From: Natrinema sp. SYSU A 869
GTDB lineage: Archaea; Halobacteriota; Halobacteria; Halobacteriales; Natrialbaceae
Length of the DNA stretch: 64,000 nucleotides
Reading direction: 5' to 3'
Assembly: GCF_019879105.1 (NCBI RefSeq)
Contig: NZ_CP082248.1
Coordinates: forward strand, 682,001-746,000
In this document: piece after piece, positions 1 through 54,842 of the stretch
Layout: every line of letters begins with the position of its first letter
Position numbering within the stretch: the stretch's first letter is position 1
Notes under the pieces: generated by a model
Databases searched by the model: none
The model's input: the letters and a program-made list of their open reading frames with translations, nothing else
What the model was told of the DNA's origin: nothing
Translations under genes and position numbers: made by a program

Positions 1-1
1 C

Positions 2-1861: not shown

Positions 1862-1930
1862 GTCGGTTCCAAGGGCGGTTCTCTCCCCACGAGACGGAAC
1901 AGGTAGATAGGGGTCAGAAAAAACTACTTT

Positions 1931-7324: not shown

Positions 7325-7325
7325 A

Positions 7326-8357: not shown

Positions 8358-8489
8358 GAACAATCGTTATCCAGATTTGATGTATCCGATCTATTTCAGT
8401 CCATCGGCTCCCTACTACGGCATCAGGATAGCGGTCGTCGTCAGCGATCACCGATCGGCTCTCGGCGATACAGTATTCCGCCAATCGTG

Positions 8490-15009: not shown

Positions 15010-15909
15010 CTACGCTTCCCACCAGCGATCGCGATTGGGGAAATGAATCGTGCTCCAGCCGGTTACGGCCAGTGAGACACGTCCCTCGTACCAGTTCCGG
15101 GCCGCCTTGTGAATGCGCACTTGCTCACCTTCTTTGATCCATAGTGCCTCCGACTTCTCCCAGATCGTTACACGCGTCTGGCCACTCTCGTCCGCGATGA
15201 GACCGACCTGAGCGATGCTCGGATGCGAGGGATCCCACAGCGTTTCGACATGCCCGTCGATGCTCACTTCGTTCCGATCGACCTCCTCGAGTTTCCCGAT
15301 GGGAATTACCTGCCCAGGTGCGGTCTGCAACTCCTCGAACACGTTGACGACCGCACTCGGCAGGTCTTTCCCACCGACGACAGCTTCACCCAGCCGCTGG
15401 CCGATCACCGCTCGAGACCAGCCATCCAACTGGTCAGCCAGCCGCATTGATTGTTTGTTCACTGCCGCCAACTGCTCTCGAGTGAGTTCTGCACGGGGAT
15501 CCACCCGATCTGGGTCCGCCATTGGATCCACACTCGCAGCCCGCTTCTGGAACGTCATACGCCGCTCTACGCTCCGTCTCGCGGTAATCTCTCGCGTCCG
15601 CTTCTCACGACCCTCCTGCGTTCCCAGCTCGGCCTGGGAACTGATCCGCTCGAGTTCTGCTTCTCGTGCCCTGATGCGCTCTTCCTGCTCGAGGGTGACA
15701 CCGTGAATCCGCTCGGTGCTCGTATTTGCGATCCCGTCTGGGTGGTTCGCATCCACCTTCGCCTGTATCTCCTGTTTGACCGTCGCCTCGAATACCGGCG
15801 TCTCGTCGACGACTGGGACGCTATCTTCATCGACCGTCTGCTCGCCTGCCTGTTCGAATGCCTGCTCATCCACCGTAACGACCTTGCTACTCGAGTTGTT
15901 ACTTGACAT
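15010..15909 (-). CDS. RPA-like OB-fold single-stranded-DNA-binding protein, copy 1
   Basis: The 299-residue protein starts MSSNNSSSKVVTVDE; the same start appears in all three copies. The first 200 residues are charged and helical (KVDANHPDGIA, RIHGVTLEQEERI). The C-terminal 100 residues form an OB fold (VETLWDP, QVGLIADESGQTRVTIW, EGEQVRIHKAARNWYEGR) like that of haloarchaeal RPA/RFA-type proteins. This family is common on haloarchaeal plasmids and probably binds ssDNA during replication or transfer. Upstream lies a conserved palindrome. A near-identical paralogue is at 32769 and a truncated one at 20584. Confidence 0.8.
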   Translation of the reverse strand: MSSNNSSSKVVTVDEQAFEQAGEQTVDEDSVPVVDETPVFEATVKQEIQAKVDANHPDGIANTSTERIHGVTLEQEERIRAREAELERISSQAELGTQEGREKRTREITARRSVERRMTFQKRAASVDPMADPDRVDPRAELTREQLAAVNKQSMRLADQLDGWSRAVIGQRLGEAVVGGKDLPSAVVNVFEELQTAPGQVIPIGKLEEVDRNEVSIDGHVETLWDPSHPSIAQVGLIADESGQTRVTIWEKSEALWIKEGEQVRIHKAARNWYEGRVSLAVTGWSTIHFPNRDRWWEA

Positions 15910-16001
15910 TGGTCTCACAAAGACCGAAGGCGCTCAGCGCCCGACACCGCGATGCTGGTACATCGCGGTTTTCTGACGACTACGACCGACAGACCCATCT
16001 A

Positions 16002-16055
16002 CGCGCTCTCGCTCGCGCCTTCGCGAGCGCCCTTCTGGGCGCGAGCGAGAGCGCG
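16002..16055. repeat. 18-bp perfect palindromic hairpin upstream of RPA-like gene (copy 1)
   Basis: CGCGCTCTCGCTCGCGCC at 16002-16019 pairs perfectly with 16038-16055 across an 18-base spacer. The same structure stands upstream of the other two copies of the gene. It could be a replication or recombination structure, or form in the 5' RNA leader. Conservation of both arms is visible; the function is not known. Confidence 0.75.
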
Positions 16056-16821
16056 CCTAAGTGGGGTGACCCAACCAGCACCGCGCGCCGTCCGCCCGGA
16101 GCGAGCGGCCAGCACACAAGCCGGTTTCGTGTCCATCGAGCGAGCGACGTCTGGAGCGAGGGAGACGCAACCGAAAGCGCGCTTGGTGCTGGCGTCGAGG
16201 GCACATCCATTTTAGCCCGGTAGCCCGCCCGCTACTGCAGGCAGGCAGCCCGGAATGGTCGGTCGCGAGCGAAGCGAGGCGTGACCGAAGGGAACGCCTC
16301 GAAGCGAACGGCGAAGCCGTGAGCGACGTGGAGGGCGGAATGCGGCGAGCGGGGCGGGCCGTAACGAACCACCCATCCAACCGAACCCGACGCTCGGGGA
16401 ACTAGCCGATGTCCTGGTGGACTCAGAAAGGGCGAGGCCGTCTCGGTCACCGGGAGAGCAAAGCTCTCCCGAGCACACGGCGCTTCGAGCCGTGAACGTC
16501 TTCCGACCCCGTAGCACCGCAAGGACGAGGAGCGCAGCGGGGCTCTCGTGAGCGTAGTGAACGAGAGCAAGCGAGACGTAGTCTCGCGTGATCACGGGAT
16601 GCCGAGCAGCCAAGGGCTCACAGGAGGTGATTCCTAAGTGACCTGGTCTAGTAACTCGCAATGGGATTCCTATCAGTAGATGATAGTACGGTTCCTTTAT
16701 TCAGAACTTTCCGTGAAAATCGAGGTAAGTATAAATGCATATCTAGCACGAGACTCTTTTTTCCTGTATCTCTGACATGACTTGCAGTTTCTATTTATAT
16801 CTGGGATTCAAAGATGAGAGT
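16056..16821. other. Conserved GC-rich noncoding block
   Basis: No gene is supported. About 160 bases after the palindrome are nearly identical in copies 1 and 3 and closely similar in copy 2. The rest is full of short complementary motifs of the AGCGAAGCGA type that would fold into stems (for example CTCTCGT and ACGAGAG near 16542-16565). It could encode a structured RNA. Confidence 0.5.
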
Positions 16822-20583: not shown

Positions 20584-21225
20584 TCATCCTAGCTTGCTCT
20601 TCTCGAGTTTCCCAATGGGAATCACCTGCCCGGGCGCTGTCTGCAACTCCTCGAACACGTTGACGACCGCACTCGGCAGGTCTTTCCCACCGACGACAGC
20701 TTCACCCAGCCGCTGGCCGATCACCGCTCGAGACCAGCCATCCAACTGGTCAGCCAGCCGCATTGATTGTTTGTTCACTGCCGCCAACTGCTCTCGAGTG
20801 AGTTCTGCACGGGGATCCACCCGATCTGGGTCCGCCATTGGATCCACACTCGCAGCCCGCTTCTGGAACGTCACACACCGCTCTACGCTCAGTCTCGCGG
20901 CAATCTCTCGCGTCCGCTTTTCACGTCCCTCTTGTGTTCCCAGCTCGGCCTGGGAACTAATCCGCTCGAGTTCTTCCTCGCGTGCCTTGATACGCTCTTC
21001 CTGCTCGAGGGTGACACCGTGAATTCGCTCAGTGTTCGTCTCTGCAATTCCGTCTGGATGGTTCGCATCCACCTTCGCCTGTATCTCCTGTTTGACTGTC
21101 GCCTCGAATACCGGCGTCTCGTCGACGACTGGGGCGCTATCTTCATCGACCATCTGCTTGCCTGCCTGTTCGAACGCCTGTTCATCCACCGTAACGACCT
21201 TGCTACTCGAGTTGTTACTTGACAT
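20584..21225 (-). pseudogene. RPA-like gene, truncated copy 3
   Basis: The frame starts MSSNNSSSKVVTVDE like the complete copies and follows them to VIPIGKLE, about residue 208. It then ends after five unrelated residues. The whole OB fold is missing, so ssDNA binding should be lost. The upstream palindrome and about 160 bases of noncoding sequence are retained. The break falls near 20600, where sequence similarity to the other copies stops. Confidence 0.85.
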
Positions 21226-21660
21226 TGGATCTCACTGATCCGAAGGCGCTCACGCGCCTGCCACCGCGATGCTGGTACATCGCGGTTTTCCGATCACAAC
21301 GACCGACAGAACCATCTGCGCGCTCTCGCTCGCGCCTTCGCGAGCGCCCTACCGGGCGCGAGCGAGAGCGCGCCTAAGTGGGGTGACCCAACCAGCACCG
21401 CGCGCCGTCCGCCCGGAGCGAGCGGCCAGCACACAAGCCGGTTTCGTGTCCATCGAGCGAGCGACGTCTGGAGCGAGGGAGACGCAACCGAAAGCGCGCT
21501 TGGTGCTGGCGTCGAGGGCACATCCATTTTAGCCCGGAACGGCGCTCGCGGTGCGGAGAGCGCCCGCATGCCCGGAATGGTCTGTCGCGAAACGGCGAAC
21601 GGAGTGAGCCGTATGCGACGCGGAGGGCGGCATGCGGCGAGCGGGGCAGGCCGATACCCA
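21226..21660. other. Conserved noncoding block, copy 3
   Basis: It holds the palindrome plus a segment nearly identical to 16056-16215, then a diverged GC-rich part. No gene is seen. Confidence 0.5.
21319..21372. repeat. Palindromic hairpin upstream of truncated RPA-like copy
   Basis: CGCGCTCTCGCTCGCGCC at 21319-21336 pairs with 21355-21372; one more outer base pair extends it to 19. The spacer differs from copy 1 at CCTACCGGG, yet both arms are intact. Confidence 0.75.
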
Positions 21661-30904: not shown

Positions 30905-32179
30905 GTTTCAGCAGTACCTTTGTAGGGTTGAAGCGTGTCCGCGCAGGCGTGCGTGACAAACAGTCGCTGTTTCAGCAGTACCTTTGTAGGGTTGAAGCTC
31001 GAGCCCGCGCGATCTCAATCGCCAGCTCATGCCGTTTCAGCAGTACCTTTGTAGGGTTGAAGCGGCCTGGTCGAGCAGACCGACGAAGGGGAGTATCGGG
31101 TTTCAGCAGTACCTTTGTAGGGTTGAAGCGACCTCCAGCTACGACAGACGGGCACGCAGAACGACGTTTCAGCAGTACCTTTGTAGGGTTGAAGCGCCGT
31201 TCCAGGATATCGCGGTCAGTCAACCGGGAGAGTTTCAGCAGTACCTTTGTAGGGTTGAAGCAATCCGGACGAACAGGCGACGTTTGACGTAACTGGCGTT
31301 TCAGCAGTACCTTTGTAGGGTTGAAGCGCCGTTCCAGGATATCGCGGTCAGTCAACCGGGAGAGTTTCAGCAGTACCTTTGTAGGGTTGAAGCAATCCGG
31401 ACGAACAGGCGACGTTTGACGTAACTGGCGTTTCAGCAGTACCTTTGTAGGGTTGAAGCATCAAAGCAGCCCATCACTATCTCACTCAACAGGAGTTTCA
31501 GCAGTACCTTTGTAGGGTTGAAGCTTGAAGACGCCGAAGGACTGAACGAAGCTGTAATCGTTTCAGCAGTACCTTTGTAGGGTTGAAGCGCTGCGGAAGA
31601 GACCGGGAGTGTGATGGCCCATATGTTTCAGCAGTACCTTTGTAGGGTTGAAGCGCCGGATTGCTGTGGAGACCGCGATGGAAGCCGTTGTTTCAGCAGT
31701 ACCTTTGTAGGGTTGAAGCACATGTCCAGAGTGTGAATCTGATGATGTTGAGAGAGTTTCAGCAGTACCTTTGTAGGGTTGAAGCCGCCCTGTTGCGGTT
31801 GCCATGGTGATTCGACGTTTGGTTTCAGCAGTACCTTTGTAGGGTTGAAGCGACGACTGCGGCGATCCGGTCGCACACTTCTGCGAGTTTCAGCAGTACC
31901 TTTGTAGGGTTGAAGCGATGGTGAAGTTGGTGGTAATGTCGATCTTGATAATGGTTTCAGCAGTACCTTTGTAGGGTTGAAGCTCCGCTGGCCCCTCGAG
32001 TGCGACGCCAATCGCCGAGTTTCAGCAGTACCTTTGTAGGGTTGAAGCGACGAGGGAGATCGCCTTTCAGGAGTGGCACAGGGAGTTTCAGCAGTACCTT
32101 TGTAGGGTTGAAGCGGGACTGAGTCTGCTATCAGGGACGCAACGGAACTGTTTCAGCAGTACCTTTGTAGGGTTGAAGC
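30905..32179 (+). CRISPR. CRISPR array, 20 repeats, 19 spacers, haloarchaeal type I-B-like
   Basis: Twenty copies of a 30-base repeat (begins GTTTCAGCAGTACC, ends GGGTTGAAGC) appear identical from first to last. Spacers are 34-37 bases. Spacers 5 and 7 (31196-31231 and 31328-31363) are identical, as are 6 and 8 (31262-31297 and 31394-31429), so a two-spacer unit has been duplicated in tandem. No cas gene is in the window. The perfect last repeat suggests an array that has not decayed. It should be transcribed rightward from the leader at 30788-30904. Confidence 0.98.
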
Positions 32180-32315
32180 GATAGCTACAATAGGCGTTTC
32201 GGCATTGTCTAGTTCTGGATTGTCTCAGTTGGCGTCTTTTCGTTGAGATCTTGATGCGTTCTCTGGCGGTTCTCGGAGTTCTTCGAGCGACATAGACACT
32301 TGCGACAAGAACTCC

Positions 32316-32768: not shown

Positions 32769-33668
32769 CTACGCTTCCCACCAGCGACCGCGATTGGGGA
32801 AATGGATCGTGCTCCAGCCGGTCACAGCCAGTGAGACACGTCCCTCGTACCAGTTCCGGGCTGCCTTATGAATGCGCACTTGCTCGCCTTCTTCGATCCA
32901 CGGTGCCGCGGACTTCTCCCAGATCGTCACACGCGTCTGTCCACTTTCGTCTGCGATAAGACCGACCTGCGCGATGCTTGGATGCGAGGGATCCCACAGT
33001 GTTTCGACACGCCCGTCGATGCTCACCTCGTTTCGATCGACCTCCTCGAGTTTCCCGATGGGAATCACCTGCCCAGGCGCTGTCTGCAACTCCTCGAACA
33101 CATTGACGACCGCACTTGTCAGGTCTTTTCCATCGACGACGGCTTCCCCCAGCCGCCGGCCGATCGCCGCTCGAGACCAGCCATCCAACTTCTCGGCCAG
33201 CCGCATCGATTGCTTGTTCACTGCCGCTAACTCCTCCTGAGTGAGTTCTGCACGGGGATCCGCCCGATCTGGATCCGCCATCGGATCCACACTTGCAGCC
33301 CGCTTCTGAAACGTCGCACGCCGCTCTACGCTCCGTCTCGCGGCAATCTCTCGCGTCCGCTTCTCACGTCCCTCCTGCGTTCCCAGTTCGGCCTGGGAAC
33401 TAATCCGCTCGAGTTCTGCTTCTCGTGCCTTGATACGCTCTTCCTGCTCGAGGGTGACACCGTGAATTCGCTCGGTGTTCGTCTCTGCAATTCCGTCTGG
33501 ATGGTTCGCATCCACCTTCGCCTGTATCTCCTGTTTGACTGTCGCCTCGAATACCGGCGTCTCGTCGACGACTGGGACGCTATCTTCATCGACCGTCTGC
33601 TCGCCTGCCTGTTCGAATGCCTGCTCATCCACCGTAACGACCTTGCTACTCGAGTTGTTACTTGACAT
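32769..33668 (-). CDS. RPA-like OB-fold single-stranded-DNA-binding protein, copy 2
   Basis: This 299-residue paralogue of the 15010 gene has the same start (MSSNNSSSK) and length. Differences are scattered substitutions (EKLDGWSRAAIGRR, KDLTSAVVN, SAAPWIEEGEQ). The OB fold is intact (VETLWDP, TRVTIWEKS, WYEGRVSLAV). An upstream frame is open for another 150 codons through the palindrome, but that translation is arginine-rich and absent from the other copies. It is expected to bind ssDNA. Confidence 0.82.
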   Translation of the reverse strand: MSSNNSSSKVVTVDEQAFEQAGEQTVDEDSVPVVDETPVFEATVKQEIQAKVDANHPDGIAETNTERIHGVTLEQEERIKAREAELERISSQAELGTQEGREKRTREIAARRSVERRATFQKRAASVDPMADPDRADPRAELTQEELAAVNKQSMRLAEKLDGWSRAAIGRRLGEAVVDGKDLTSAVVNVFEELQTAPGQVIPIGKLEEVDRNEVSIDGRVETLWDPSHPSIAQVGLIADESGQTRVTIWEKSAAPWIEEGEQVRIHKAARNWYEGRVSLAVTGWSTIHFPNRGRWWEA

Positions 33669-33762
33669 TGGTCTCACCAAAGACCGAAGGCGCTCAGCGC
33701 CCGACACCGCGATGCTGGTACATCGCGGTTTTCCGACGATAACGACCGACAGACCCATCTGT

Positions 33763-33814
33763 GCGCTCTCGCTCGCGCCTTCGCGAGCGCCCTTCTGGGC
33801 GCGAGCGAGAGCGC
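33763..33814. repeat. 17-bp palindromic hairpin upstream of RPA-like copy 2
   Basis: GCGCTCTCGCTCGCGCC at 33763-33779 pairs exactly with 33798-33814 around the same loop as copy 1. It is the third instance of this structure. Confidence 0.75.
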
Positions 33815-34511
33815 GTCTGAAGCTGACGACTATCCAGCACCGCGCGTCGTCCGCCCGGAGCGAGCGGCCAGCACACAAGCCGGTTTCGCGTCCGTCGAGC
33901 GAGCGACGTCTGGAGCGAGGGAGACGCAACCGAAAGCGCGCTTGGTGCTGGCGTCGAGGGCACATCCATTTTAGCCCGGTAGCCCGCCCGCTACTGCAGG
34001 CAGGCAGCCCGGAATGGTCGGTCGCGAGCGAAGCGAGGCGTGACCGAAGGGAACGCCTCGAAGCGAACGGCGAAGCCGTGAGCGACGCGGAGGGCGGCAG
34101 CGGCGAGCGGGGCGGGCCGTTGAGAAACACCGTCTATCCGGACCGACGCTCGGAGACACAACCGATGATTAGCGGACTCAGAAAGGGAGAGATCTGCTCT
34201 CCCGACCTCTCGGCGCAAAACTCAGTGAACACCCCCACCCTCGTAAGCACTGTAGGCACGACGAGCACAGCGGTGGTCGTGGGATGCCGAGCGGTTGAGG
34301 CTTTCAGGAGACGTGCTTCACTCGTCTTGCTGCGCGTTCAGCTCCCAAGGAACTTGTCCGCCGTCGTCCCGATACGAATTCTGTTGATGTTGCACATCTC
34401 GAGGTCGATATCGATCCGCCGCCAGTCTCCTATCGTCAAGATGGCAACTGGCTCTAACGGGAGATGATCCCTTTAAATCGACTTAGGAAGTACTCACAGG
34501 TTCCGATCGAG
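33815..34511. other. GC-rich noncoding block and possible gene remnant
   Basis: Most of it matches the noncoding block after the palindrome in copies 1 and 3. Near the end, 34371-34457 reads DTNSVDVAHLEVDIDPPPVSY and stops, which looks like the tail of a haloarchaeal gene whose front is lost. No complete gene is seen. Confidence 0.4.
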
Positions 34512-41162: not shown

Positions 41163-42419
41163 TCAATTGTTATCACCAACGAACCGCCGTGCACGGCCCC
41201 AGATCGAGTCACCGTCGTCAGCACCCGTCTCATCTTTCTCAGGGGACGAAGCCTGCTCACGACTCTCGAGTGCCTCCTGACAGTCACTGAGTGCCTCCCG
41301 AAGCGTTTTGTTGGTTGCCTCGAGGTCCGCAATACGTTCGTCTTTCTCCTCGAGTGTTACCTCGAGGTCGTCGACGCGGTCAGTCAACAGTCGATTCTTC
41401 TCGACTAGATACGCATGATTTTGCACTGGTTCGTCACGACTGCCGGCGATCGACGACTCGCTCTGTCTGGAACTCGCTTCACTCGAGTCATCTCGAGCGT
41501 CCGGATCGTAGAAGTCGGAGGTGTTCGTAATCGCTCGTTCGATGGTCTTCTCGCCGTACGTCGATCCGTCGGCGTAGTGGACGTCGCCCCACTTCTCCCG
41601 GAGCAATCCAGACTGCCGGAAGAGTCGATCCACTCGAGTGTGGTCGCCGCCGGTCCAGAACGCCAGCAGACAGCACAGCGCCATATCAGCTTCTGACTGA
41701 CTCTCGTACCCAGCAGTCGAGCCACGCCATAACCGCTCGAATTTCCCACCGTTCGATGCATTTCGAGCCTTTTCGAGCAACTCCTCGTCCTCGAGATTAA
41801 CGCCGATATCGACTACCTCGTCCGTCGGCACCTGTTCGTCAGTTGTGCCTCGATACCCGGATTCGGGTTTTGCGTTAGTATCGGTATCTTGGACGTACTC
41901 CTGGTGGATCGCCTCGAGTGCATCCTGCCGACGAGCAACGCGACTGGGCATCTCCTCGAGGGTGTCACCAGTCACGGTGAAAAACCGGGCGGTGTCGTAC
42001 AGTTCAATACTTCCACGTCGATTCCGTCCGTCCGGGAGTTCACCCTCGATGAGCACATGGAAGCCAGTTCCTGACGGAGAAATCTCTGTATAGGAATCAA
42101 GCCGCTCGATAATGTCCTGTGCTGCGTCGTCGACGGTCTCAGTCTCTGGGTCTCGGCAGTCATCGAGATCCACACCAACGATAGGATCATCGTCGGTAAA
42201 CACGAACCCGACGCCATCTGCATCCCCCGAATCGGCGTACTCGAGCGCGGGTTCGACCGACACCCATGTCTCTGGATCCGTCGAGGAGGCGAACTCACCA
42301 CTCCCAGGTGTCACCGGGATCTTAGTCGGCTTCCCGTCTCGAGGTTCTTCTCGCCAGCAGACCCACTGGTCACGCTCACGTAACTGCTCAGGGAGCACCG
42401 AAACCGTCCGTTCAGTCAT
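41163..42419 (-). CDS. Plasmid/phage-type primase-polymerase (NrS-1-like)
   Basis: The 418-residue protein starts MTERTVSVLPEQLRERDQW. The N-terminal prim-pol core has VGVDLDDCRD (metal-binding acidic residues) and SPSGTGFHVLIEG (family SGxGxH motif). A middle region GGKFERLWRGST...SEADMALCCLLAFW matches the helix-bundle domain of NrS-1-type polymerases. The C-terminus is a coiled coil (about 340-390). No helicase domain is fused. It should prime replication of this element. The iteron-like repeats lie 144-257 bases upstream. Confidence 0.82.
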   Translation of the reverse strand: MTERTVSVLPEQLRERDQWVCWREEPRDGKPTKIPVTPGSGEFASSTDPETWVSVEPALEYADSGDADGVGFVFTDDDPIVGVDLDDCRDPETETVDDAAQDIIERLDSYTEISPSGTGFHVLIEGELPDGRNRRGSIELYDTARFFTVTGDTLEEMPSRVARRQDALEAIHQEYVQDTDTNAKPESGYRGTTDEQVPTDEVVDIGVNLEDEELLEKARNASNGGKFERLWRGSTAGYESQSEADMALCCLLAFWTGGDHTRVDRLFRQSGLLREKWGDVHYADGSTYGEKTIERAITNTSDFYDPDARDDSSEASSRQSESSIAGSRDEPVQNHAYLVEKNRLLTDRVDDLEVTLEEKDERIADLEATNKTLREALSDCQEALESREQASSPEKDETGADDGDSIWGRARRFVGDNN

Positions 42420-42562
42420 CGCCGATCCGCCTCGTACTGCACGTCCATCTGGTCGCATACCACCCATCAGTATGCTGATAAACATGCCATAGGCTGGTAG
42501 ACTGTCCGTGACCCTGTCCAACGGGTGCAACCCGTTCTATACTAGTTGGTTTTGAGCGTGAA

Positions 42563-42676
42563 TTTGCCCTGAACATCGCCTCAGTACTGCGATTTTGCCC
42601 TGAACAGTTACCAATTCCGTGACCTGAACGGGAAATTTGCCCTGAACGGGAAATTTGTCCTGAACAAATTTGTCGA
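42563..42676. repeat. Iteron-like 18-bp direct repeats, candidate origin
   Basis: The motif TTTGCCCTGAAC occurs at 42563, 42594 and 42636, with TTTGTCCTGAAC at 42654. Units CCTGAACGGGAAATTTGC (42623) and CCTGAACGGGAAATTTGT (42641) are tandem with an 18-base period, and a third begins at 42659. The tract is AT-rich, ends in inverted AAATTTG sequences, and stands between the primase and the transfer operon. Such iterons are typical of plasmid origins or operators. The origin role is inference. Confidence 0.65.
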
Positions 42677-42794
42677 TACGGCGGATAATGGCAAATATAC
42701 CGGTTAGTACTCGGATTTCTGAATTTGGTCTGTGGGGGCGAGATCTTCAGTGGTCCAAGTGGGTGAATTATATTCATCGTTCTGATAGTATCTC

Positions 42795-43511
42795 TCACTC
42801 AAGGAACTCTGATCCATCACTGGTCAGATCGATACCGGTGTAGACAGTCACGAGATCGCCACCATCTCTGACTCGGGTATCCTCATAGTCAACGACGTTC
42901 GCAAGCTTTCGACCGAACCAGCTCGCGTTTGTCCCATCAATGTCGTGCTGGTCGGTCCATCTCGAGTAGGCCTGAAACAGTGCTGCCTTTGGAATTTGTG
43001 CTCCAGAAGCCTCCCTGATGTACATCGCTGCGAACGCCTCAATGCCGTCGCCGTCTGGGTCAACCTCAACTGGCTCCGATATTGATGAACCTGACTCTAC
43101 TGATGAGGACGACTCCGTTGCTCGAGAGTGATTCCCTGAAGGGATGTCTGGCCAGAGTTCCTCATCGCTTGGCGAGTCGGACAAGTCGTATGTCTCGCCT
43201 TGCTGGAAGAGTACAGGACTCCCATCTGTGGGGTGTATTAGGATCAGGTAGCTATCATGCGAATAATCCGGATCTGGCAGGTCGACGGCAGGATAGAACG
43301 GCCGTTTGATCGGCATCCACTCCTCCTCAAAGTCGTCTCTCGAGTTGTAGACATGGGTCTCTCCACTCTCGTAGACCGTATACTGGCCGGTTTCTTGATC
43401 ATAGCTATAGTAGGCTGGCACACTGTCTTTCGAGAGGGTGCCCGCATCTGGAACGCGGGCAAACTCTGTTTCACCGTCTGAAAGAACGATATCACCGTCC
43501 CTCGTGTCCAA
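42795..43511 (-). CDS. C-terminal part of coupling protein, in a shifted frame (or separate gene)
   Basis: The 238-residue frame begins at a TTG (DTRDGDIVLSDGETEF). It continues the sense of the VirD4-like gene, whose own frame becomes arginine-rich nonsense at the same point. The last 70 residues (AAMYIREASGAQIPKAALFQAYSRW, then WFGRKLANVVDYEDTRV) look like the winged-helix tail of plasmid primases. One missing base in a G run near 43505 would explain the split. A true TTG start is the alternative. Confidence 0.65.
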   Translation of the reverse strand: MDTRDGDIVLSDGETEFARVPDAGTLSKDSVPAYYSYDQETGQYTVYESGETHVYNSRDDFEEEWMPIKRPFYPAVDLPDPDYSHDSYLILIHPTDGSPVLFQQGETYDLSDSPSDEELWPDIPSGNHSRATESSSSVESGSSISEPVEVDPDGDGIEAFAAMYIREASGAQIPKAALFQAYSRWTDQHDIDGTNASWFGRKLANVVDYEDTRVRDGGDLVTVYTGIDLTSDGSEFLE

Positions 43512-45808
43512 ACAGTTCGGTTCGTCTCAGATGTCTTGGGCCGAACGGCAGTGACGCCACCGTGAGCAGTCGCACCACCACCGAAGGTCACGACCTCGTC
43601 GCAGTTGTAGAATTGTTCAGTGCCATCGGCTCGCTCTTGCAGCGGTGGCGAGAGGATATTCTCGACTCGAGTCGCCCACTCTGTCTCGGAGTCACCAGGT
43701 CGAACGACGAAGATCGGAATTCGATCCGCTTCGTGGGCTCGCTTGAGATTCTGCAAGACCTTGACGGGTCGCTCTGGCGTCGTTGTCTCAGCCTCGATGT
43801 TGAACACGACGTCGTGATCTGGATGCGTCGCGATGGCGTCCGGTTGCTCGCTTCCGTCCTGCTCGAGGATTTCGACACTGAATCCACGTTCGGTGAGTGC
43901 TGTTTCCGTCTCGAGGAGGAGTGCATCGTGACTCGACCCACCGGCAGATCTGACAGTGCCCGTCTCGGGTTCGACCACTGTTTCTCCGTCGTCAGTGAGC
44001 CGAACCACGATGTCGTCGTTCTGCAGCGTAACCTCAAGCAACCGGGATTCCTCACGAACGTCAGGCAAGTCTTCGGGTGCAACGTCGATCTCAGGCTCAG
44101 TATTCTCGAGACGGGCCGCGAGTTCCTCGTCGACAATAGTGACATCGACCCAGCCGTTTTCTGCTCGCACGCTTTCTCGAATCTGGACTGCACGAACGGC
44201 TTCCGCCATCGTTTCCTCGAGAATCTGCTTGGGGTTCGCCGCCTCGTTCGAATCGCTATAGATGAGATCCTGTAGAATCTCAGCGTCCGTCAGCGGATCA
44301 GTCCCATACCGCTCGAGGCTCGCTTCGACAATCACGTCAACAGCCTCGGCAGATCGAAGCGGTGGGTACGGCGGGAACATATTGAGGAGCAGCGGCTCCG
44401 AGTAGCGTCCACCATCGAGCGGTAATTTCGTCCAGGCTTTGTACTGATCTGTCGAAATCAGGTCCTCTGCGGTGTAGTCTTGGAACCGTTTCATCAGGAG
44501 CCGAGCGTCGTCGACGTCGTTGACCGAGAAGGCGAGGAGGTTGTCACAATTGTTCTGCATTGCCTTCAGCGTGTCCTCGTCGAGTTGGGAGGGATACTGC
44601 GAAGCCAAAGTCACCGACAGTCGCATTGACCGAGCACGGGCCAGCATCGACTCGATATCGAGATTGTCACTGGCGATGTCGTCAAACTCGTCACAAAGGA
44701 CGAAATAAGGATCTGGATCGGAATCGCGTTCGTACGACCGATGCTGAATGGCACTCCAGAGATTCCGCATCACGCCGAGGGTGACCATCTTCTTGATGTC
44801 CGTATTCTCGACGGGCGTTCGAACGATGACGATGCGGTCGTTGTCGATGATATCTCGGAAGTCGATGGTGCTCTCGCGATGGGCGATGATTCGGCGAATT
44901 ACCGAGTTCTCGACCCACGACTTGATCCGTTTCAGAAGTGGCCGGATCGTCTCTTCTTCCATATTCGCGATCTCGAGACAGAACTCCCTGATATAGGGAT
45001 CCTCGACATCGAGTGCGAAGTCCTCCCGTCGCTCGGCGTTGAGCAACGTGAAATACATATCGATAATGGAGAACGGTTTCTCCGATTTCATCATCGCTCG
45101 GGCCATCGACTCGGTAATCGCCTCCATATTGATACCCCAGTAGTCGGACGTGTCAAAGACCGCCTTCAGGTTCTCGACCCGGTTTTCGATCTCGTTCTCG
45201 AGTTCCTCGGTTGTCTCACATTCGGGCACCTCAAGGAAATTCATCCCGACCGTCTTCTCGTGGGTGGTCGACCCAGGCTCGATCCAGACCACGTCCTCGA
45301 GACGGTGTTCGGGAAGCTTCCGAAGCAGTTCACGGGAGTCTCGGCCTTTCGGATCGAAGTACACGAAGCCGTGGCCAGCGTACGCCCACTGAACCATCAT
45401 ATTCAGGAGTGCTGTGGTTTTCCCATAGCCGGTGGTGCCCGTAATCCAGATATGACGGAAGAGCGAGTCAAAGCGAAGTGGTGCTTCACGGAAGCCAGTC
45501 TGGGGATCTTTATCGTAGCCGATCCAGAGCGGTGCAGACGAGGTATCGACACCTGCCTCGAACATCTCGCGGATAAACGGTCCTGCGACAGTCCCCTCAC
45601 GAGCCGTCTCAGTGACAGCTTGCTTCCCTCCGACGGAGCTAGTCTTCTGCTCAGCGATATCGTACGTCTCGCCGAGTCGGGACTGGGGAGCTGGTGGTGA
45701 ATCAGCCCCTGAGCCACTGTCACCAGTGGCTTGTGTCGCTGGCTTGGTCTCCGTCTCTTCCGTTGCTTCTCCGGACTTGTCGCGGTCAAAGAATCGATCA
45801 AACACCAT
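43244..45808 (-). CDS. VirD4/TraG-like conjugation coupling ATPase (3' end frameshifted)
   Basis: The 854-codon frame starts MVFDRFFDRDKSG. A P-loop (GTTGYGKTTALL, about residue 125) and Walker B (FVLCDEFDDIA, about 365) fit VirD4/TraG or HerA-related ATPases. RHIWITGTTG and SLASQYPSQLD-type segments (VTLASQYPSQL) are typical of coupling proteins. The region after residue 500 is acidic and beta-rich. From about residue 767 the frame is nonsense, and the natural continuation lies in 42795-43505. It probably drives DNA into the transfer channel. It overlaps the upstream gene by 11 bases. Confidence 0.85.
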   Translation of the reverse strand: MVFDRFFDRDKSGEATEETETKPATQATGDSGSGADSPPAPQSRLGETYDIAEQKTSSVGGKQAVTETAREGTVAGPFIREMFEAGVDTSSAPLWIGYDKDPQTGFREAPLRFDSLFRHIWITGTTGYGKTTALLNMMVQWAYAGHGFVYFDPKGRDSRELLRKLPEHRLEDVVWIEPGSTTHEKTVGMNFLEVPECETTEELENEIENRVENLKAVFDTSDYWGINMEAITESMARAMMKSEKPFSIIDMYFTLLNAERREDFALDVEDPYIREFCLEIANMEEETIRPLLKRIKSWVENSVIRRIIAHRESTIDFRDIIDNDRIVIVRTPVENTDIKKMVTLGVMRNLWSAIQHRSYERDSDPDPYFVLCDEFDDIASDNLDIESMLARARSMRLSVTLASQYPSQLDEDTLKAMQNNCDNLLAFSVNDVDDARLLMKRFQDYTAEDLISTDQYKAWTKLPLDGGRYSEPLLLNMFPPYPPLRSAEAVDVIVEASLERYGTDPLTDAEILQDLIYSDSNEAANPKQILEETMAEAVRAVQIRESVRAENGWVDVTIVDEELAARLENTEPEIDVAPEDLPDVREESRLLEVTLQNDDIVVRLTDDGETVVEPETGTVRSAGGSSHDALLLETETALTERGFSVEILEQDGSEQPDAIATHPDHDVVFNIEAETTTPERPVKVLQNLKRAHEADRIPIFVVRPGDSETEWATRVENILSPPLQERADGTEQFYNCDEVVTFGGGATAHGGVTAVRPKTSETNRTVWTRGTVISFFQTVKQSLPAFQMRAPSRKTVCQPTIAMIKKPASIRSTRVERPMSTTRETTLRRSGCRSNGRSILPSTCQIRIIRMIAT

Positions 45809-46946
45809 TGTGTCCTCTGTTGTTGACGTTGTGTTCAGTGGAAGCGCTGCTATCGGCGGATTGTTCGTATTGGCCAAGATCGGCGGGAACGCGGTCGCCA
45901 CGTTGCGTATATCGCCAGTCGATCTTTGGCGTCTCAATCTCTGTATTGGGGATGTGCGCGACGCCGGCGAGTTCGTCGACGGTCATGATCATGTGCCGAT
46001 CGACCCACTCGCGGTCACTCATCCGCTGGACGAATCGCCGGAGCCGCTTCGCTCGCTTCCGCTCCCTGCGATGCCAGACCGGGGTATCGCTGAGCCCTTG
46101 CTCGGTGATCGCGTTGTAGTACTTCCTGAACATCCCCGCGACACCGTGGGCTCGAGATTCGGCTTCGTCCTGTTCTACCGAGGCAGCGAGAACGCGGATA
46201 TTGACGTGGAACGCCTGTTCACCACGTTGCTGTTCGATCGTCTTCGCGGCCTGCTTATCCTTGGCGCTCGGTGGTCTCGTTTGCGGGTTGATCCAGCCGA
46301 CGGATGTCCCTTGGCGAAGTGCGTGGGCGAGTTCGTCGACGCTATTGTGCTTGAACCGGTCACCGTCGGTCCACGACTGTTTCGCAGGCCGGAAGATGAC
46401 CTGTGTGACGACCGTACTCTCGTCGAGCGACAACATCTCGCTCGTGATCTCACCGTAGGGGTCTGTCTCGAACCCTTCGCTGTTGTGATGGCGAATCGGG
46501 TAGTAGGGTATCTTCTCCATCTCGAGCCACGCGCCAGCGACATACTCGTCAGAGCCGATGATAGGAAACGCAGGAGCCTCCTCTACTTGGAATACCTCAC
46601 TGTTGGCATAGTTGTTCCCGACACGCCGTCTGAATTTGTCGGCGGCCGCCTCGCTGGCAGCGTGCATGTAGAATCTGATCTTCCCCTCGTCGAACCAGAC
46701 CTCGAACGAGTGGTGATCGCTCGTATTCTTCCCGCGGAAATTGGTTGTCACATCGTGGACCGACTGGAGGACTCCTGCACCATCTACCACTCCCTCGTTT
46801 TCTTTGTAGGGACGAATCCGCAGTAGCGTTCCTGGCGTGTCGGCTTGCTGTTGGACGAACGAGTCGTGCTCTCCGTAGTCGAGTTGCGTCGCCTTGTACC
46901 GTGGCGACGAACTCAGGATCTTCCTGATTTGCTTGAGCCTAGTCAT
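45798..46946 (-). CDS. Conjugation-operon protein between the VirB4-like and VirD4-like ATPases
   Basis: The 382-residue protein starts MTRLKQIRKILSSSP; the longer frame upstream is only another phase of the VirB4 gene. RIRPYKENEGVVDGAGVLQSVHDV and FEVWFDEGKIRFYMHAASE look like the soluble N-terminal domain that other archaeal and candidate-phylum transfer ATPases carry fused (DUF8128-like pattern, seen by eye). It contains no P-loop. It overlaps both ATPase genes by 8 and 11 bases, so it probably forms a complex with one or both. Confidence 0.7.
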   Translation of the reverse strand: MTRLKQIRKILSSSPRYKATQLDYGEHDSFVQQQADTPGTLLRIRPYKENEGVVDGAGVLQSVHDVTTNFRGKNTSDHHSFEVWFDEGKIRFYMHAASEAAADKFRRRVGNNYANSEVFQVEEAPAFPIIGSDEYVAGAWLEMEKIPYYPIRHHNSEGFETDPYGEITSEMLSLDESTVVTQVIFRPAKQSWTDGDRFKHNSVDELAHALRQGTSVGWINPQTRPPSAKDKQAAKTIEQQRGEQAFHVNIRVLAASVEQDEAESRAHGVAGMFRKYYNAITEQGLSDTPVWHRRERKRAKRLRRFVQRMSDREWVDRHMIMTVDELAGVAHIPNTEIETPKIDWRYTQRGDRVPADLGQYEQSADSSASTEHNVNNRGHNGV

Positions 46947-49900
46947 GGTCTTGGATGTCACACTCCGTTTCAGTTGTGTCTCCTTTGGTCGGTGATTCCC
47001 CACCGTCAGTCCGGACATGTGCCTCGTCAGCGTCCGTCTCGAGGGCATGGTCAACGACCGCATCGAGGACTTCTTCTTTCGTGAGATCCTCCTCGAGAAG
47101 ACGACTCGCTGTGTCTGCAGTGAGATCGAGATGCGTCGCAAGCGCGTTGCGCTGTGCTTCGTTTTCGACGAACTCTTCGAAGGCGAGCAACTCTGCTGAG
47201 TCGTCGCTAATCGCTTGCTGGATGAAGGCCTGGTCGTCAGGTTCGTAGTCGATGACCCGTTTCTCGAAGTCATCAGCAACAACGTGCAGCGGGTACGTCC
47301 CGTGTTCCTCGACACGGACAAGCGACTGGCTATAGCCGAGATCCTCTTTCCCGGCGTCAGCACCTCTGACGTATCGGCGCTGCTCTTCCGTCAAGCCGAT
47401 TTTGTCGGCTGTCCCGTCGTCCAGATCGGGGAGCTTGTGGAAGACCTTGATCGGACACATGCCGATGATCTTCTCTGCCTGTTCGGTTTCGTAGAACTCC
47501 TGAGCAGTCTGCGAGAGTAACACCATTCGAAGCCCAGCGTGGCGCTGATGACGGAACGCCGTCTCGAGGAAATCAAGGTTCGCCTGGTCCTCGAAGAGGT
47601 AGTGCGCTTCGTCGATCGCGAGCTCGACGTTCCGTTGGGTGTTCTTCGCCTGCTGATAGATCGTCGAGAGCAGGAGCTGCATCAGGAACGTCTGGCGGTC
47701 GATCCCCGATGCACTACCCTCGATCTGACCGAGATCGATGTAGACGACCTTGTTGTCGCCCTCGAGGATATTGATCTCCGAGCGGTGTGAGAGATTTTCG
47801 TAGGAACCGCCCTCTCGGAAGGGCTGAAACGCGATTGCGAGTTCGTCTGCATATTGTGCGGCACGCTCGCGAGCAGATTCGGATGCCGCAATATTGTGCT
47901 CATCCGGGTTCTCAGCGATATCACAGAGAATCCGATGGACGTCCTGCATCGTCGGTGAGTTCGCCGACGTGTGCGTCGAGACGTCGTCCTCAACGATCCC
48001 TGCTTGTCGGTAGGACTCATCAATAACGTACGAGAGGACACCAGTTTCGGCTCCGAGTTCGATATCACGAGCGTCGAGGAAGTTCTCGAGAACGGCGTAG
48101 ACCTCGTCTTTCTTCGCCGAGAGGGGAGAGATGCCATCGCTGGACTCGAGGACGTGCTGTGGCGTCTCTCGGATCTCGAGTGGGTTGAGCTTCGTGTCGC
48201 CGCCGACGGTGATCGTTTTTGCGTTCAGGGCATCCGCGATGCCACGGAAGCCGCCGACTGGATCGACGAGGACGAGCATCGTGTCGTTGCGTCGTTTCAT
48301 CATCCGAAGGTGGCGCATGATGTCGCCGAACGTCTTCCCAGCACCCGGCATCCCGACGACGAGTTCGCTGTGTCCCGTCTCGAGTTCCCACGGATTGATT
48401 CGGACTGGTGACCCGTTGTGACCGTGATAGCCGTATTCGATACCGTCGTCCATCATGAGGTAGTTCGACGAGAACGGGAACATCGCGCCGATCGCCTGAT
48501 TCGTCAGTGTGGACATCCGATCGCGGCCGAGTTCGTTTGCTCCAAGCGGTGACACCGTTGCGAGGCCACGTTCCTGCCAGCGGCTCGCAACTTTGAGCGT
48601 ACAGTTCGCCGGCGCATCCTTGATGATCGAGCGTAATCGAGTCGTCTGATTCTCGAGTTCTTGCTGACTTTCGGCAGCGAGGCGAATGAACACACCACCC
48701 CGGTAGAACGATGCTTTGTTCGCCCGAACGAGCGACCGCATGTACTTCGCCTGGTCGATATCGTCCTGCAGATCTTCGGCTTTGAGACTGTTCGAGTCGT
48801 GCTGGTTGATCTTCAAGTCCGAAATCCAGTCGGCCATCATGTCCTGGGCCGACTGACTATCGAACGGATCGAGGTGGATGCTGAGATCCGTCTGCAGATC
48901 GGTCTCGAGTAAGAGTCGCTCGAGGAGTCCATCCGACGGCTCTTCAGGGAATTGTTCGATCCAGAACGTACGGACGTATGTCTCGTCGTTGATCACGGCG
49001 TAGGTCGTTTCCCAGTCGATCGTCGAGGGAGCGATAACCGACTGGTGCATCGTCGACGTGTCTGGTAGCCGGTCATCGGAAGGAACCGGCGGATCATCGT
49101 CAGCGTCCTCGTCACTGTTCTCTTCGGCATGGTTGCTCGAGTTCGTGTCCGACAGATCGTCGTGTTCGTCCATTGCATCGAGGACGTCATCCGGGTCGGG
49201 CGTCGCTGGGACACCGTCGCTAATCCCGTGCGAGACGACCGGGAACGTACCGAGCGCGGTCGTGATATCAGCGTACTCTTCCGCTTGGCACGTCCAGTAC
49301 TCCTTCGTGATCCGAGCGAGGTCGTATGCGTCGACAGGGCTAACTGAACACCGGTAGAGCGACGAGCCGCCACGGCGGAGCTGTGTGAGTCGAGACTCGA
49401 GTTGTTCTTCTTTGAGTCGCTCACGCTCGGAGTCGGTCAGATCATCGGTCTGGAACCGGTCGAAGAATCGGCCTAATGCGGGCATCTCTGCAAGATAGGC
49501 GAGGACACTATCGTCAGTTTCGTCGAAGTGCTCAATATCCGCATCGTTCACTGCAGTAATAAGGTAGTACTCGCGGATCGTGGTCGTCTCAGAGTCGATC
49601 TCCCTGTTTTCGGTCGTGTTCGCCGAAACGTATTCCTCGAGAAGCCGTTTCAAGACTGGACGCGAGCGAACGTCGACATCACCAAGTCGATCCTGGTGTG
49701 CACGGACAATCTCATCCTCATCGACCTCTCGACTGGTGACGTAGATCTTCACTGGAAAGTCGACAGTCGAGTTGGCAAACTCCGAGAGTGATTGAACGGC
49801 CTTCGCCCACGCATTGTCGTCCTCGAGAGCCATATTCGCTGGCTCGACTTTCATCGCTCCGACGAGTGCTCCGTCCGTTCGTTCGACAGCGTGGGGATAC

Positions 49901-50256
49901 ACCCGCTGTAAGCGGGTCAGGTAGCGAACCTCGCTGTTGTCCGCATCGCCGTGGGTATACTCCTTGTTCTTGATCGCCCAGCCGAAACGGGCAGCGAGCC
50001 ACTCCGTGAGCCAGAGGTATCTGGGCTTGACCTTGTGGAGCAAGAACAGCAGCGTCGTGAGCATGATCCCGAAGCCCAGTACGGGAATCGTCAGTGCCGC
50101 CGGGACGAACGTCGCTGCAACAACGGTGACGAACGCCACTGCAAGGAACAGCATGAGTTCGCCGATCGTATAACCCCGGAAGAATGCCGTTGTGCCACCC
50201 AGTGACTGGTGGATCTTTCGCGCGTTATACTCATGGTCTGCTGTGTTCGTACTCAT
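46939..50256 (-). CDS. VirB4/TraE-like conjugation ATPase
   Basis: The 1105-residue protein starts MSTNTADHEYNARK. Two membrane helices lie near residues 25-70 (GELMLFLAVAFVTVVAATFV), suggesting a fused VirB3/PrgI-like anchor. Walker A GMPGAGKTFGD is near residue 635, Walker B VELAIDEAHYLF near 878, and LSQTAQEFYE is a VirB4-type motif. An acidic, non-conserved insert (EENSDEDADDDPP) precedes the P-loop half. It should power pilus or channel assembly at the membrane. It starts 5 bases after the VirB6-like gene. Confidence 0.9.
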   Translation of the reverse strand: MSTNTADHEYNARKIHQSLGGTTAFFRGYTIGELMLFLAVAFVTVVAATFVPAALTIPVLGFGIMLTTLLFLLHKVKPRYLWLTEWLAARFGWAIKNKEYTHGDADNSEVRYLTRLQRVYPHAVERTDGALVGAMKVEPANMALEDDNAWAKAVQSLSEFANSTVDFPVKIYVTSREVDEDEIVRAHQDRLGDVDVRSRPVLKRLLEEYVSANTTENREIDSETTTIREYYLITAVNDADIEHFDETDDSVLAYLAEMPALGRFFDRFQTDDLTDSERERLKEEQLESRLTQLRRGGSSLYRCSVSPVDAYDLARITKEYWTCQAEEYADITTALGTFPVVSHGISDGVPATPDPDDVLDAMDEHDDLSDTNSSNHAEENSDEDADDDPPVPSDDRLPDTSTMHQSVIAPSTIDWETTYAVINDETYVRTFWIEQFPEEPSDGLLERLLLETDLQTDLSIHLDPFDSQSAQDMMADWISDLKINQHDSNSLKAEDLQDDIDQAKYMRSLVRANKASFYRGGVFIRLAAESQQELENQTTRLRSIIKDAPANCTLKVASRWQERGLATVSPLGANELGRDRMSTLTNQAIGAMFPFSSNYLMMDDGIEYGYHGHNGSPVRINPWELETGHSELVVGMPGAGKTFGDIMRHLRMMKRRNDTMLVLVDPVGGFRGIADALNAKTITVGGDTKLNPLEIRETPQHVLESSDGISPLSAKKDEVYAVLENFLDARDIELGAETGVLSYVIDESYRQAGIVEDDVSTHTSANSPTMQDVHRILCDIAENPDEHNIAASESARERAAQYADELAIAFQPFREGGSYENLSHRSEINILEGDNKVVYIDLGQIEGSASGIDRQTFLMQLLLSTIYQQAKNTQRNVELAIDEAHYLFEDQANLDFLETAFRHQRHAGLRMVLLSQTAQEFYETEQAEKIIGMCPIKVFHKLPDLDDGTADKIGLTEEQRRYVRGADAGKEDLGYSQSLVRVEEHGTYPLHVVADDFEKRVIDYEPDDQAFIQQAISDDSAELLAFEEFVENEAQRNALATHLDLTADTASRLLEEDLTKEEVLDAVVDHALETDADEAHVRTDGGESPTKGDTTETECDIQDHD

Positions 50257-50261
50257 CGAAA

Positions 50262-51470
50262 TCACCACCTCGAGACCTTCTCTTTCGTGTTTTTGAATCC
50301 ACGCTTCGCTCGAGTCGATGTCTTCTGTGTCGCCTTGCGGGCATCATCTGCGGCTTTGTCACGCATGCGACCCGTCTTCGACTTCCGCAGGTTGTTGTAT
50401 CGGCCGGCGTGAGTCTTCGTTGAGCGAGCCGAGGAGCCGAGTTTGTACGCTTTCGAGTTACCGCTCTCGAGTGTCGTCTGGCCGCTCTTCGTTACAGCAC
50501 CAACCTGGTTGTCTGCGTATCCACGATGGACGTTTCGAGCACCACGGACAGCCTTTCCAGAGGTGCGCTTTGCCTTCGCAGCCCCAGATTTGGCTGCTGC
50601 AGGATTCGTTGCGGTAACACCTTTCTGGGCGATGGTCCGCATTGCCGGGCTACTCCAGTAGACCGTCATGACCATCGCAATAATCGCTGTAGGGATCAGT
50701 GCTAGTCCGATGAATAACGAAAAGAGACCCTTAACCGAGGTCTCGAGCCCGCCCACCTCCCATCCAATTCGGAAGAGGATCGCTGGCGGAATCCCAGCAA
50801 GCACTAATCCCGGGTAGACACCTGCAGCTTGACGTGCCATGTTCGCCGCTGGACTAAACGGCCAGGCTTCCATTGACCAGAGAACGCCCAGCAACGGCAT
50901 TATTGGCGTTAATACGCAAAGAGCGATCCAGCGGAGAGCAACAACGAATCCTGCGATGACCAAGAAGAAGTTCGATATGACGACCATCGCAAGAATGGCA
51001 AACGTGCCTCCAAGAGAGGATTGGATAAGACCACCGAGCCCTGCTGACATCTCGTCAGTCGGGGCTATCGTCATTCCGACTGCGTCGATGAACTGCAGCG
51101 GAATCGATACCAGTGGAAACCAAACGAAGGTACTCATGAATACAAGTCCAAGTCGTCGCAGGAGCTGCTTTCTCCGATACTCGCTCATCGAACCCGCTCG
51201 GAGACCAACAAACGCAAAGCCGATGACTGTCATCATGATCGCTAACGGCATGATATACGAGAGGTACACGTCTTGATACAGACTCTCCCATGGCGTGTTG
51301 TCTGGAACTCCAACAACCATATATCCCGAATCCGATTTTGGGGTTGGAACTCCGACGATAGGTCCTAAAACCGCTTCATAGATATTATTGACAAGACCGA
51401 GAAGGGCATCGGTGAAATCTTCGATGACGTTCTCGATTGCGTTCTCAACCTCTTCTTGCAGCCATGCCAT
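50262..51470 (-). CDS. VirB6/TrbL-like polytopic membrane protein
   Basis: The 402-residue protein begins with an amphipathic helix (MAWLQEEVENAIENVIEDF). Six or more hydrophobic segments follow between residues 70 and 280 (IMPLAIMMTVIGFAFVGL, FAILAMVVISNFFLVIAGFVV, LFSLFIGLALIPTAIIAMVM). The C-terminal 120 residues are strongly basic (KAKRTSGKAVRGARNVHRG), unusual in a haloarchaeon and suited to DNA or an acidic partner. Position and topology suggest the inner-membrane channel subunit. Confidence 0.75.
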   Translation of the reverse strand: MAWLQEEVENAIENVIEDFTDALLGLVNNIYEAVLGPIVGVPTPKSDSGYMVVGVPDNTPWESLYQDVYLSYIMPLAIMMTVIGFAFVGLRAGSMSEYRRKQLLRRLGLVFMSTFVWFPLVSIPLQFIDAVGMTIAPTDEMSAGLGGLIQSSLGGTFAILAMVVISNFFLVIAGFVVALRWIALCVLTPIMPLLGVLWSMEAWPFSPAANMARQAAGVYPGLVLAGIPPAILFRIGWEVGGLETSVKGLFSLFIGLALIPTAIIAMVMTVYWSSPAMRTIAQKGVTATNPAAAKSGAAKAKRTSGKAVRGARNVHRGYADNQVGAVTKSGQTTLESGNSKAYKLGSSARSTKTHAGRYNNLRKSKTGRMRDKAADDARKATQKTSTRAKRGFKNTKEKVSRW

Positions 51471-54106: not shown

Positions 54107-54574
54107 TTAGAACGGCCGCACACAGTCTGAAAAGCCAAATCCCATCTGACTGCCGACCTTGTCGATGAGTTCTGGTGAGATCAGGGCAAGGACGATGATC
54201 CCGAACCCGATACCCGACATTACGAGCCTCTCCTTGGCTTGGTTCTTCTTCTCTGGATTCCCACCAGCACGCATGTATGAAAGACCAGACCGACCAACGT
54301 AGAATCCGGTTGCAGGAAGTCCGAGACCGGCAACGGCGCCAAAGACGATCCCGATTCCAGTCTCGACACCGGTCCCACAGTAGACGTCTCCGACCTCCGA
54401 CTGCGCAGCTACTGACCCAGAGATGACGATCAAAAACACGAGCCACACTGCCAGTGGCTGGATTGTTGACCTAATCTGGCCGAACAACCGGCGAGTCCGG
54501 GTCGAGAAACTGAATACCGAATGAGGGCATTTGGTGACCGATTCGGATGACTCACGAGGTGAAGTATCACTCAT
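54107..54574 (-). CDS. VirB2/pilin-like small membrane protein
   Basis: The 155-residue protein starts MSDTSPRESSES. A signal-like helix (PLAVWLVFLIVISGSVAAQSE) is followed by two more hydrophobic segments (GTGVETGIGIVFGAVAGLGLPATGFYV and VMSGIGFGIIVLALISPELI). Three short helices with a cleavable-looking AAQ site recall VirB2/TrbC pilins. It lies upstream of the surface protein gene with a 30-base gap. Pilin identity rests on topology and context. Confidence 0.6.
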   Translation of the reverse strand: MSDTSPRESSESVTKCPHSVFSFSTRTRRLFGQIRSTIQPLAVWLVFLIVISGSVAAQSEVGDVYCGTGVETGIGIVFGAVAGLGLPATGFYVGRSGLSYMRAGGNPEKKNQAKERLVMSGIGFGIIVLALISPELIDKVGSQMGFGFSDCVRPF

Positions 54575-54842
54575 AATGGTGGATATTTGGACGTCGTGTT
54601 CCCAGCAGCGTCTCGAGATCAACGATCTCAGTCGCTGATTCGGACAGCTCATCCCACATGGAGTTGCTCCCACGACGGGTGATATTGCAATGGGCTATCA
54701 GCCCAGTCACTGCTTTGTAAGCCAGTCCAGACGTACTGGGGCTGGTCGTCTGTCTGAGAAACCACGCGTCGGCAGTCTGGCCTCCAGCTATCGTATTGAG
54801 TATGTTACGTAGTATTCCACTTGATTCCATACCTAACATCAT
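54567..54842 (-). CDS. First small protein of the conjugation operon
   Basis: The product has 91 residues (MMLGMESSGILRNILNTIAGG) and is mostly polar, with DELSESATEIVDLETLLG at the C-terminus. The ATG at 54842 lies 20-28 bases after a TATA-like element, as expected for leaderless haloarchaeal mRNAs; ATGs at 54839 and 54830 are alternatives. It overlaps the pilin-like gene by 8 bases. The function is unknown. Confidence 0.6.
   Translation of the reverse strand: MMLGMESSGILRNILNTIAGGQTADAWFLRQTTSPSTSGLAYKAVTGLIAHCNITRRGSNSMWDELSESATEIVDLETLLGTRRPNIHHYE

Follow-up and report, generated by a model that had tools for sequence, protein, structure and literature searches.

The TraB protein of Streptomyces reads repeated 8-bp motifs with its C-terminal winged helix, using helix alpha-3 of that domain (PMC3583192; PMC12857230). 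It is an FtsK-like, ring-type DNA motor that moves double-stranded DNA without a type IV secretion system (T4SS) and needs no relaxase, and the TraB/clt systems are characterized by plasmid-specific short repeats (TRS repeats) located in or near the motor gene. A winged helix adjoining iterons, with a primase-polymerase nearby, is also found in the alpha protein of phage P4 (Pox_D5/RFX-type), where it acts in replication as part of a primase-helicase fusion. In archaea, reviews report no relaxase on conjugative plasmids. The plasmids of Sulfolobus and Thermococcus (pNOB8, pT33-3), whose hosts lie outside the haloarchaea compared here, encode VirB4- and VirD4-like proteins; no relaxase has been found on them, and the descriptions consulted mention no recognition array.

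The locus analyzed here is located in a 64,000-nucleotide stretch of the genome of Natrinema sp. SYSU A 869 (positions 682,001 to 746,000 of NZ_CP082248.1, referred to as the window). Its leftward gene order on the minus strand is: T4SS-pilin-like protein, TrbL/VirB6-like protein, VirB4-like ATPase, coupling protein, repeat array and primase-polymerase (primpol). The features are as follows.

41163..42419, minus strand: primase-polymerase of 418 aa, downstream of the iterons (Pfam NrS1-1_pol-like_HBD, E 3e-30)
42520..42536, no strand assigned: palindrome AACGGG-TGCAA-CCCGTT adjoining the core, present in most, not all, word classes
42537..42549, minus strand: invariant core CCAACTAGTATAG, conserved across word classes
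42563..42574, minus strand: iteron copy with the word GTTCAGGGCAAA on this strand (exact match), ~26 bp upstream of the core; this register of -26 is kept in several word classes
42584..42593, minus strand: box A ATCGCAGTAC, located between two iterons and conserved also where the word differs
42594..42605, minus strand: iteron copy, register about -57
42618..42629, minus strand: variant iteron copy GTTCAGGTCACG, register about -81
42636..42647, minus strand: iteron copy, register about -99
42654..42665, minus strand: fifth iteron copy GTTCAGGACAAA, extra in the window, register about -117
42795..45808, minus strand: type IV coupling protein gene (Pfam TrwB_AAD_bind / T4SS-DNA_transf / TraG-D_C)
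42798..43052, minus strand: C-terminal winged-helix (wH) domain, RFX / P4 origin-binding-like, the proposed iteron reader (AlphaFold and covariation)
43634..43954, minus strand: block within the coupling protein that resembles restriction endonucleases (PD...ExE), placed by alignment with a paralogue
46939..50268, minus strand: VirB4/TraC-like transfer ATPase (NCBIfam VirB4-like models to 1.2e-51, below curated cut-offs)
50262..51470, minus strand: TrbL/VirB6-like membrane protein (Pfam TrbL_3, 1.7e-13)
54107..54673, minus strand: type IV secretion pilin-like protein (Pfam T4SS_pilin, 3.4e-9)

The likeness to TraB/clt lies in a predicted ring-type motor with a C-terminal winged helix, no apparent need for a relaxase, and short repeats that differ between plasmids and adjoin the motor gene, here of 14 word classes at the same site. 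However, the motor is TrwB/HerA-like and is encoded together with VirB4, TrbL and pilin homologues in one operon, and a primpol gene and an invariant core flank the array. Since VirB4 is encoded in the upstream flank of 55 of 64 modules (the array with its flanking coupling protein and primpol genes) and a TrbL-like protein in 48, the module may work like TraB/clt by analogy, without being a member of that family. The P4 alpha protein shares the winged-helix fold, the adjoining iterons and the nearby primase-polymerase, but in the haloarchaeal locus the domain is fused to a coupling-type ATPase. With the coupling proteins TrwB, TraD and VirD4 the protein shares the ATPase core, by Pfam and by fold; unlike them, it has an additional winged helix, a nuclease-like domain and a C-terminal wH that would switch specificity.

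Exact copies of TTTGYCCTGAAC start at positions 42563, 42594, 42636 and 42654 of the window, and a variant copy, CGTGACCTGAAC, occupies 42618-42629, identical variants being present at the same place in relatives. Together these five copies form the whole array (42563-42665). Clusters of repeated 12-mers within 115 bp were absent from 30 pair-shuffled copies of the window, which confirmed the repeats of the original prediction. Its description of the region as AT-rich is fair for this genome (45% GC in 42550-42794 vs. 58% in the primpol gene). As for the proposed 18-bp iterons, the last three copies are indeed 18 bp apart (start-to-start distances across the array of 31, 24, 18 and 18 bp), and Tandem Repeats Finder detected an 18-bp array at 42623-42665 with 96% matches, but comparison with relatives identified the conserved unit as an 11-12 bp word in a fixed and unequal register, of which the 18-bp tandem spacing is only a part. 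In the whole 5.67-Mb genome the word TTTGYCCTGAAC has nine exact occurrences: four in the window, three at C1:534798-534882 in a paralogous module on another replicon, one at C2:481700, adjoining a primpol remnant, and one on C3.

Of the 392 genomes of the order, 232 encode homologues of the primpol. Many of these genes are preceded by an array of equal architecture built from a different word, and the repeats are thus conserved in exactly the position where their absence had been named as evidence against the original prediction. The 70 loci examined fall into 14 words, including TTCAGGGCA, TTCCACCCA, TTACGGCA, TCCACGCA and TCCAGGCA; these classes represent our own pattern list, in which some pairs are near variants (e.g., TCCACGCA and TCCATGCA). 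Each module uses one word in all of its copies, with some mismatches. In one group the registers relative to the core are about -26, -57, -82 and -100, while in the TTCCACCCA group they are -15, -65, -94, -112 and -182, with some copies inverted. Each array match in the 392 genomes adjoined a primpol match, and at the sensitivity used no iteron arrays were found away from modules, as would be carried by mobilisable satellites. None of the plasmid array matches overlapped an annotated gene. We found no prior report of this array in open-access papers, the literature to which our claim of its novelty applies.

While the word switches, several neighbouring elements remain unchanged. The invariant core, CAACTAGTATAGA, to which the array keeps a fixed register across haloarchaea, is rare (CAACTAGTATA has only five occurrences in the genome) and could be a BRE/TATA-like element or a processing site. 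The palindrome (in most classes) and box A are similarly constant; box A was detected in 59 of 68 loci, compared to 4.9 expected from shuffles.

The ATPase domain of the window coupling protein scored 31-32 bits against Pfam cut-offs of ~20, 22 of 27 homologues matched TrwB_AAD_bind with E <= 0.01, and the best fold matches of the protein include TrwB, Cag-beta and the Legionella pneumophila coupling complex. By these matches the motor is a coupling ATPase of the TrwB/HerA type. Its C-terminal wH was modelled by AlphaFold with a pLDDT of about 93, and the model matched the RFX DNA-binding domain (RFX-DBD) with a Z of 12.1 and the origin-binding domain of phage P4 with a Z of 9.5. At the sequence level, Pox_D5 (PF03288) was above the Pfam cut-off for 3 of 5 words, with the wH of the window itself below it (E 0.045).

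A separate winged-helix initiator gene at 42795-43511 was considered and rejected, since the paralogue (L001) and relatives encode the domain as part of the coupling protein. Its ORF is split off in the window by a one-base frameshift near position 43505, as seen by comparison with the intact paralogue, and the window copy of the coupling protein may therefore be inactive, unless the frameshift is a sequence error. The paralogous module, at L001 9254-14116 (G000:C1:533253-538115) of the same genome, is 85% identical; its coupling protein is intact, its primpol end is broken, and the adjoining VirB4 and TrbL genes have been lost. An ORF just downstream of the paralogue primpol (L001 8931-9317) appears ribbon-helix-helix-like by eye and is not intact at the window copy.

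Between the ATPase and the C-terminal wH lies a segment with the signature PD657...E672-x-E674, whose PD...ExE residues are invariant in 27 coupling-protein homologues. From near residue 619 the model of this segment matched PaqCI (Z 8.2) and the FokI catalytic domain (Z 8.1), and a further winged-helix-like segment comprises residues 517-615. The full-length model has a mean pLDDT of 61, and only its better domains were used; neither Pfam nor PDB sequences provided sequence-profile support for the nuclease-like block, which at a Z of about 8 is only a lead. If real, this domain could provide the cutting step performed elsewhere by relaxases, and it may possibly be a stand-in for the missing archaeal relaxase.

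The distribution of the words was compared with the phylogeny of the module proteins. The word varies together with the C-terminal ~100 residues of the coupling protein. Across 47 representatives, word and wH showed a partial correlation of 0.65 when the ATPase was controlled for (reached in 0 of 2000 permutations), and word and ATPase one of -0.11 when the wH was controlled for. The word was shared with the nearest wH relative in 37 of 38 cases, compared to 19 of 38 when the nearest relative was chosen by ATPase or by primpol. By parsimony, the wH tree required 13 changes of word, the ATPase tree 22 and the primpol tree 24; 13 is the minimum for 14 words, each of which arises once on the wH tree.

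In four pairs of modules with a common backbone, the sequences in and around the module diverge only within one tract of ~620 bp, which comprises exactly the wH domain and the iterons. In the pair L077/L080, the sequences are 94% identical upstream and 97% identical downstream of the replaced tract, and the exchange borders in L094/L106, L073/L081 and L108/L115 are nearly equal to those of L077/L080. The main caveat is that physical linkage alone accounts for part of the covariation, because the wH and the iterons are adjacent and one recombination tract moves both. However, the iterons are ~93% identical where the spacers between them fall to 37-57% identity, which argues against pure linkage. 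These results strongly support the proposed recognition of the iterons by the wH domain, and the winged helix encoded at 42795-43000, suggested earlier as a possible initiator, is very probably the repeat reader.

The primpol contains an NrS-1-type helix-bundle domain. By PLSDB, most of the plasmids examined are typed as "MPF_T, non-mobilizable", i.e., genes for a transfer pore are present but no relaxase is recognised. A second, different T4SS lineage was observed on the plasmid NZ_CP095399 (L136 24392-30629), which already carries a module; there, two overlapping genes, for a "DNA primase" and a "primase-associated protein", come after that for a coupling-type ATPase, and the intergenic array is absent. 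Within the window, the GC content falls from 61-70% (1-9000) to about 48-62% (9001-64000), which is consistent with location of the transfer region in acquired DNA. The window also contains a CRISPR-like array (31033-32181; 30-bp repeat GTTTCAGCAGTACCTTTGTAGGGTTGAAGC, ~35-bp spacers) and three diverged copies of a ~510-bp sequence (15608-16113, 20924-21430 and 33367-33872), also present on replicon C1, which are probably insertion sequences.

The original prediction interpreted the repeats as a candidate iteron origin using an initiator other than Orc1/Cdc6. The array is indeed iteron-like and placed upstream of a primpol gene, in relatively AT-rich DNA, and an oriV at which the wH acts as initiator and the primpol primes vegetative replication would agree with the match of the wH fold to the P4 origin-binding domain: P4-type winged helices bind replication origins, and primpols also serve replication. 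A precedent is Streptomyces pWTY27, in which a predicted primase/polymerase accompanies an iteron origin (PMC3583192). The proposed initiator, however, proved to be a domain of a coupling-type ATPase encoded within a T4SS operon, and Orc1/Cdc6 genes are present on each of the 11 complete module plasmids tested (81-169 kb). The module is therefore not their sole replication system, which still leaves room for a replication role, and such genes are probably carried by most haloarchaeal plasmids of this size. On pCBA1232-02, two annotated Orc1/Cdc6 genes (97.6-100.7 kb) lie ~36 kb from the module (about 61.5 kb). The GC-skew check proposed earlier was run on this plasmid and did not place the module at a skew extreme; the 64-kb window was uninformative for such an analysis. 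A conventional haloarchaeal Orc1/Cdc6 origin is not supported at the locus either, since the window region (C2:682-746 kb) yielded no Cdc6_C match. Among the 60 plasmid matches listed, none was smaller than 81 kb. In addition, a single genome may harbour more than one module of a given word (two in G000, two in G229; Haloferax prahovense, Halogranum rubrum), which would be disfavoured by iteron incompatibility. We consider a vegetative origin quite unlikely. The presence of Orc1/Cdc6, the association with VirB4 and the coexistence of same-word modules favour transfer over vegetative replication, and on the best reading the array would be a transfer-start (clt/oriT-like) site.

The last iteron abuts the BRE/TATA-like core, or lies 10-15 bp from it, at a constant place upstream of primpol, as might be expected of an operator array through which the coupling protein or another cassette-encoded factor regulates primpol from the CCAACTAGTATAG promoter. 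A coupling ATPase would be unusual as a dedicated transcription factor, the words were found only at modules and not at other operon or genome promoters, and the presence of box A and the palindrome hints at a function beyond that of a promoter. Regulation as the principal function therefore seems unlikely to us, and autoregulation could coexist with a transfer role. In oriT and dso layouts, variable iterons lie beside an invariant core and a palindrome. The plasmid-variable iterons of the modules are arranged in this way, as they would be in a classical oriT with the core or palindrome nicked by a relaxase and the iterons serving as accessory sites. However, 133 of the 135 plasmids with primpol homologues were classified as non-mobilizable by MOB-suite, i.e., no relaxase was recognised by this program, in line with the reviews cited above. 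Such an oriT, for which a relaxase of a novel type might be invoked, is very improbable.

Our preferred reading, which we regard as somewhat probable, is that a haloarchaeal conjugation-like system uses the array as its plasmid-specific recognition site, read by the wH of the coupling protein. The C-terminal wH of this TrwB/HerA-type protein would bind the 11-12 bp iterons adjoining its own gene, thereby marking the iteron-bearing DNA as the molecule to be transferred and setting the motor at a fixed distance from the invariant core. DNA processing would then be started by the motor, perhaps aided by the nuclease-like domain that it contains, and the motor would feed the DNA into the VirB4/TrbL/pilin apparatus, and the downstream primpol would probably prime the complementary strand. 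In a bolder version, which we hold to be doubtful, one coupling protein would replace the entire relaxosome: the wH would read the iterons, the nuclease-like domain would cut at or near the core, the ATPase would export the DNA, and swappable wH-iteron cassettes would choose the plasmid.

The arrays form a family of short DNA "address labels" beside the DNA-transfer genes of many haloarchaea. Their sequence varies with that of the wH of the adjoining motor, which suggests how archaeal plasmids may choose the DNA that is sent between cells. The locus provides a concrete candidate for such a choice: a coupling protein whose swappable winged helix would read the repeats specific to each plasmid, and which is perhaps equipped with its own nuclease domain. 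Specific protein-DNA pairs can be predicted from these data, and the words may offer a sequence key to transfer specificity across haloarchaeal megaplasmids.
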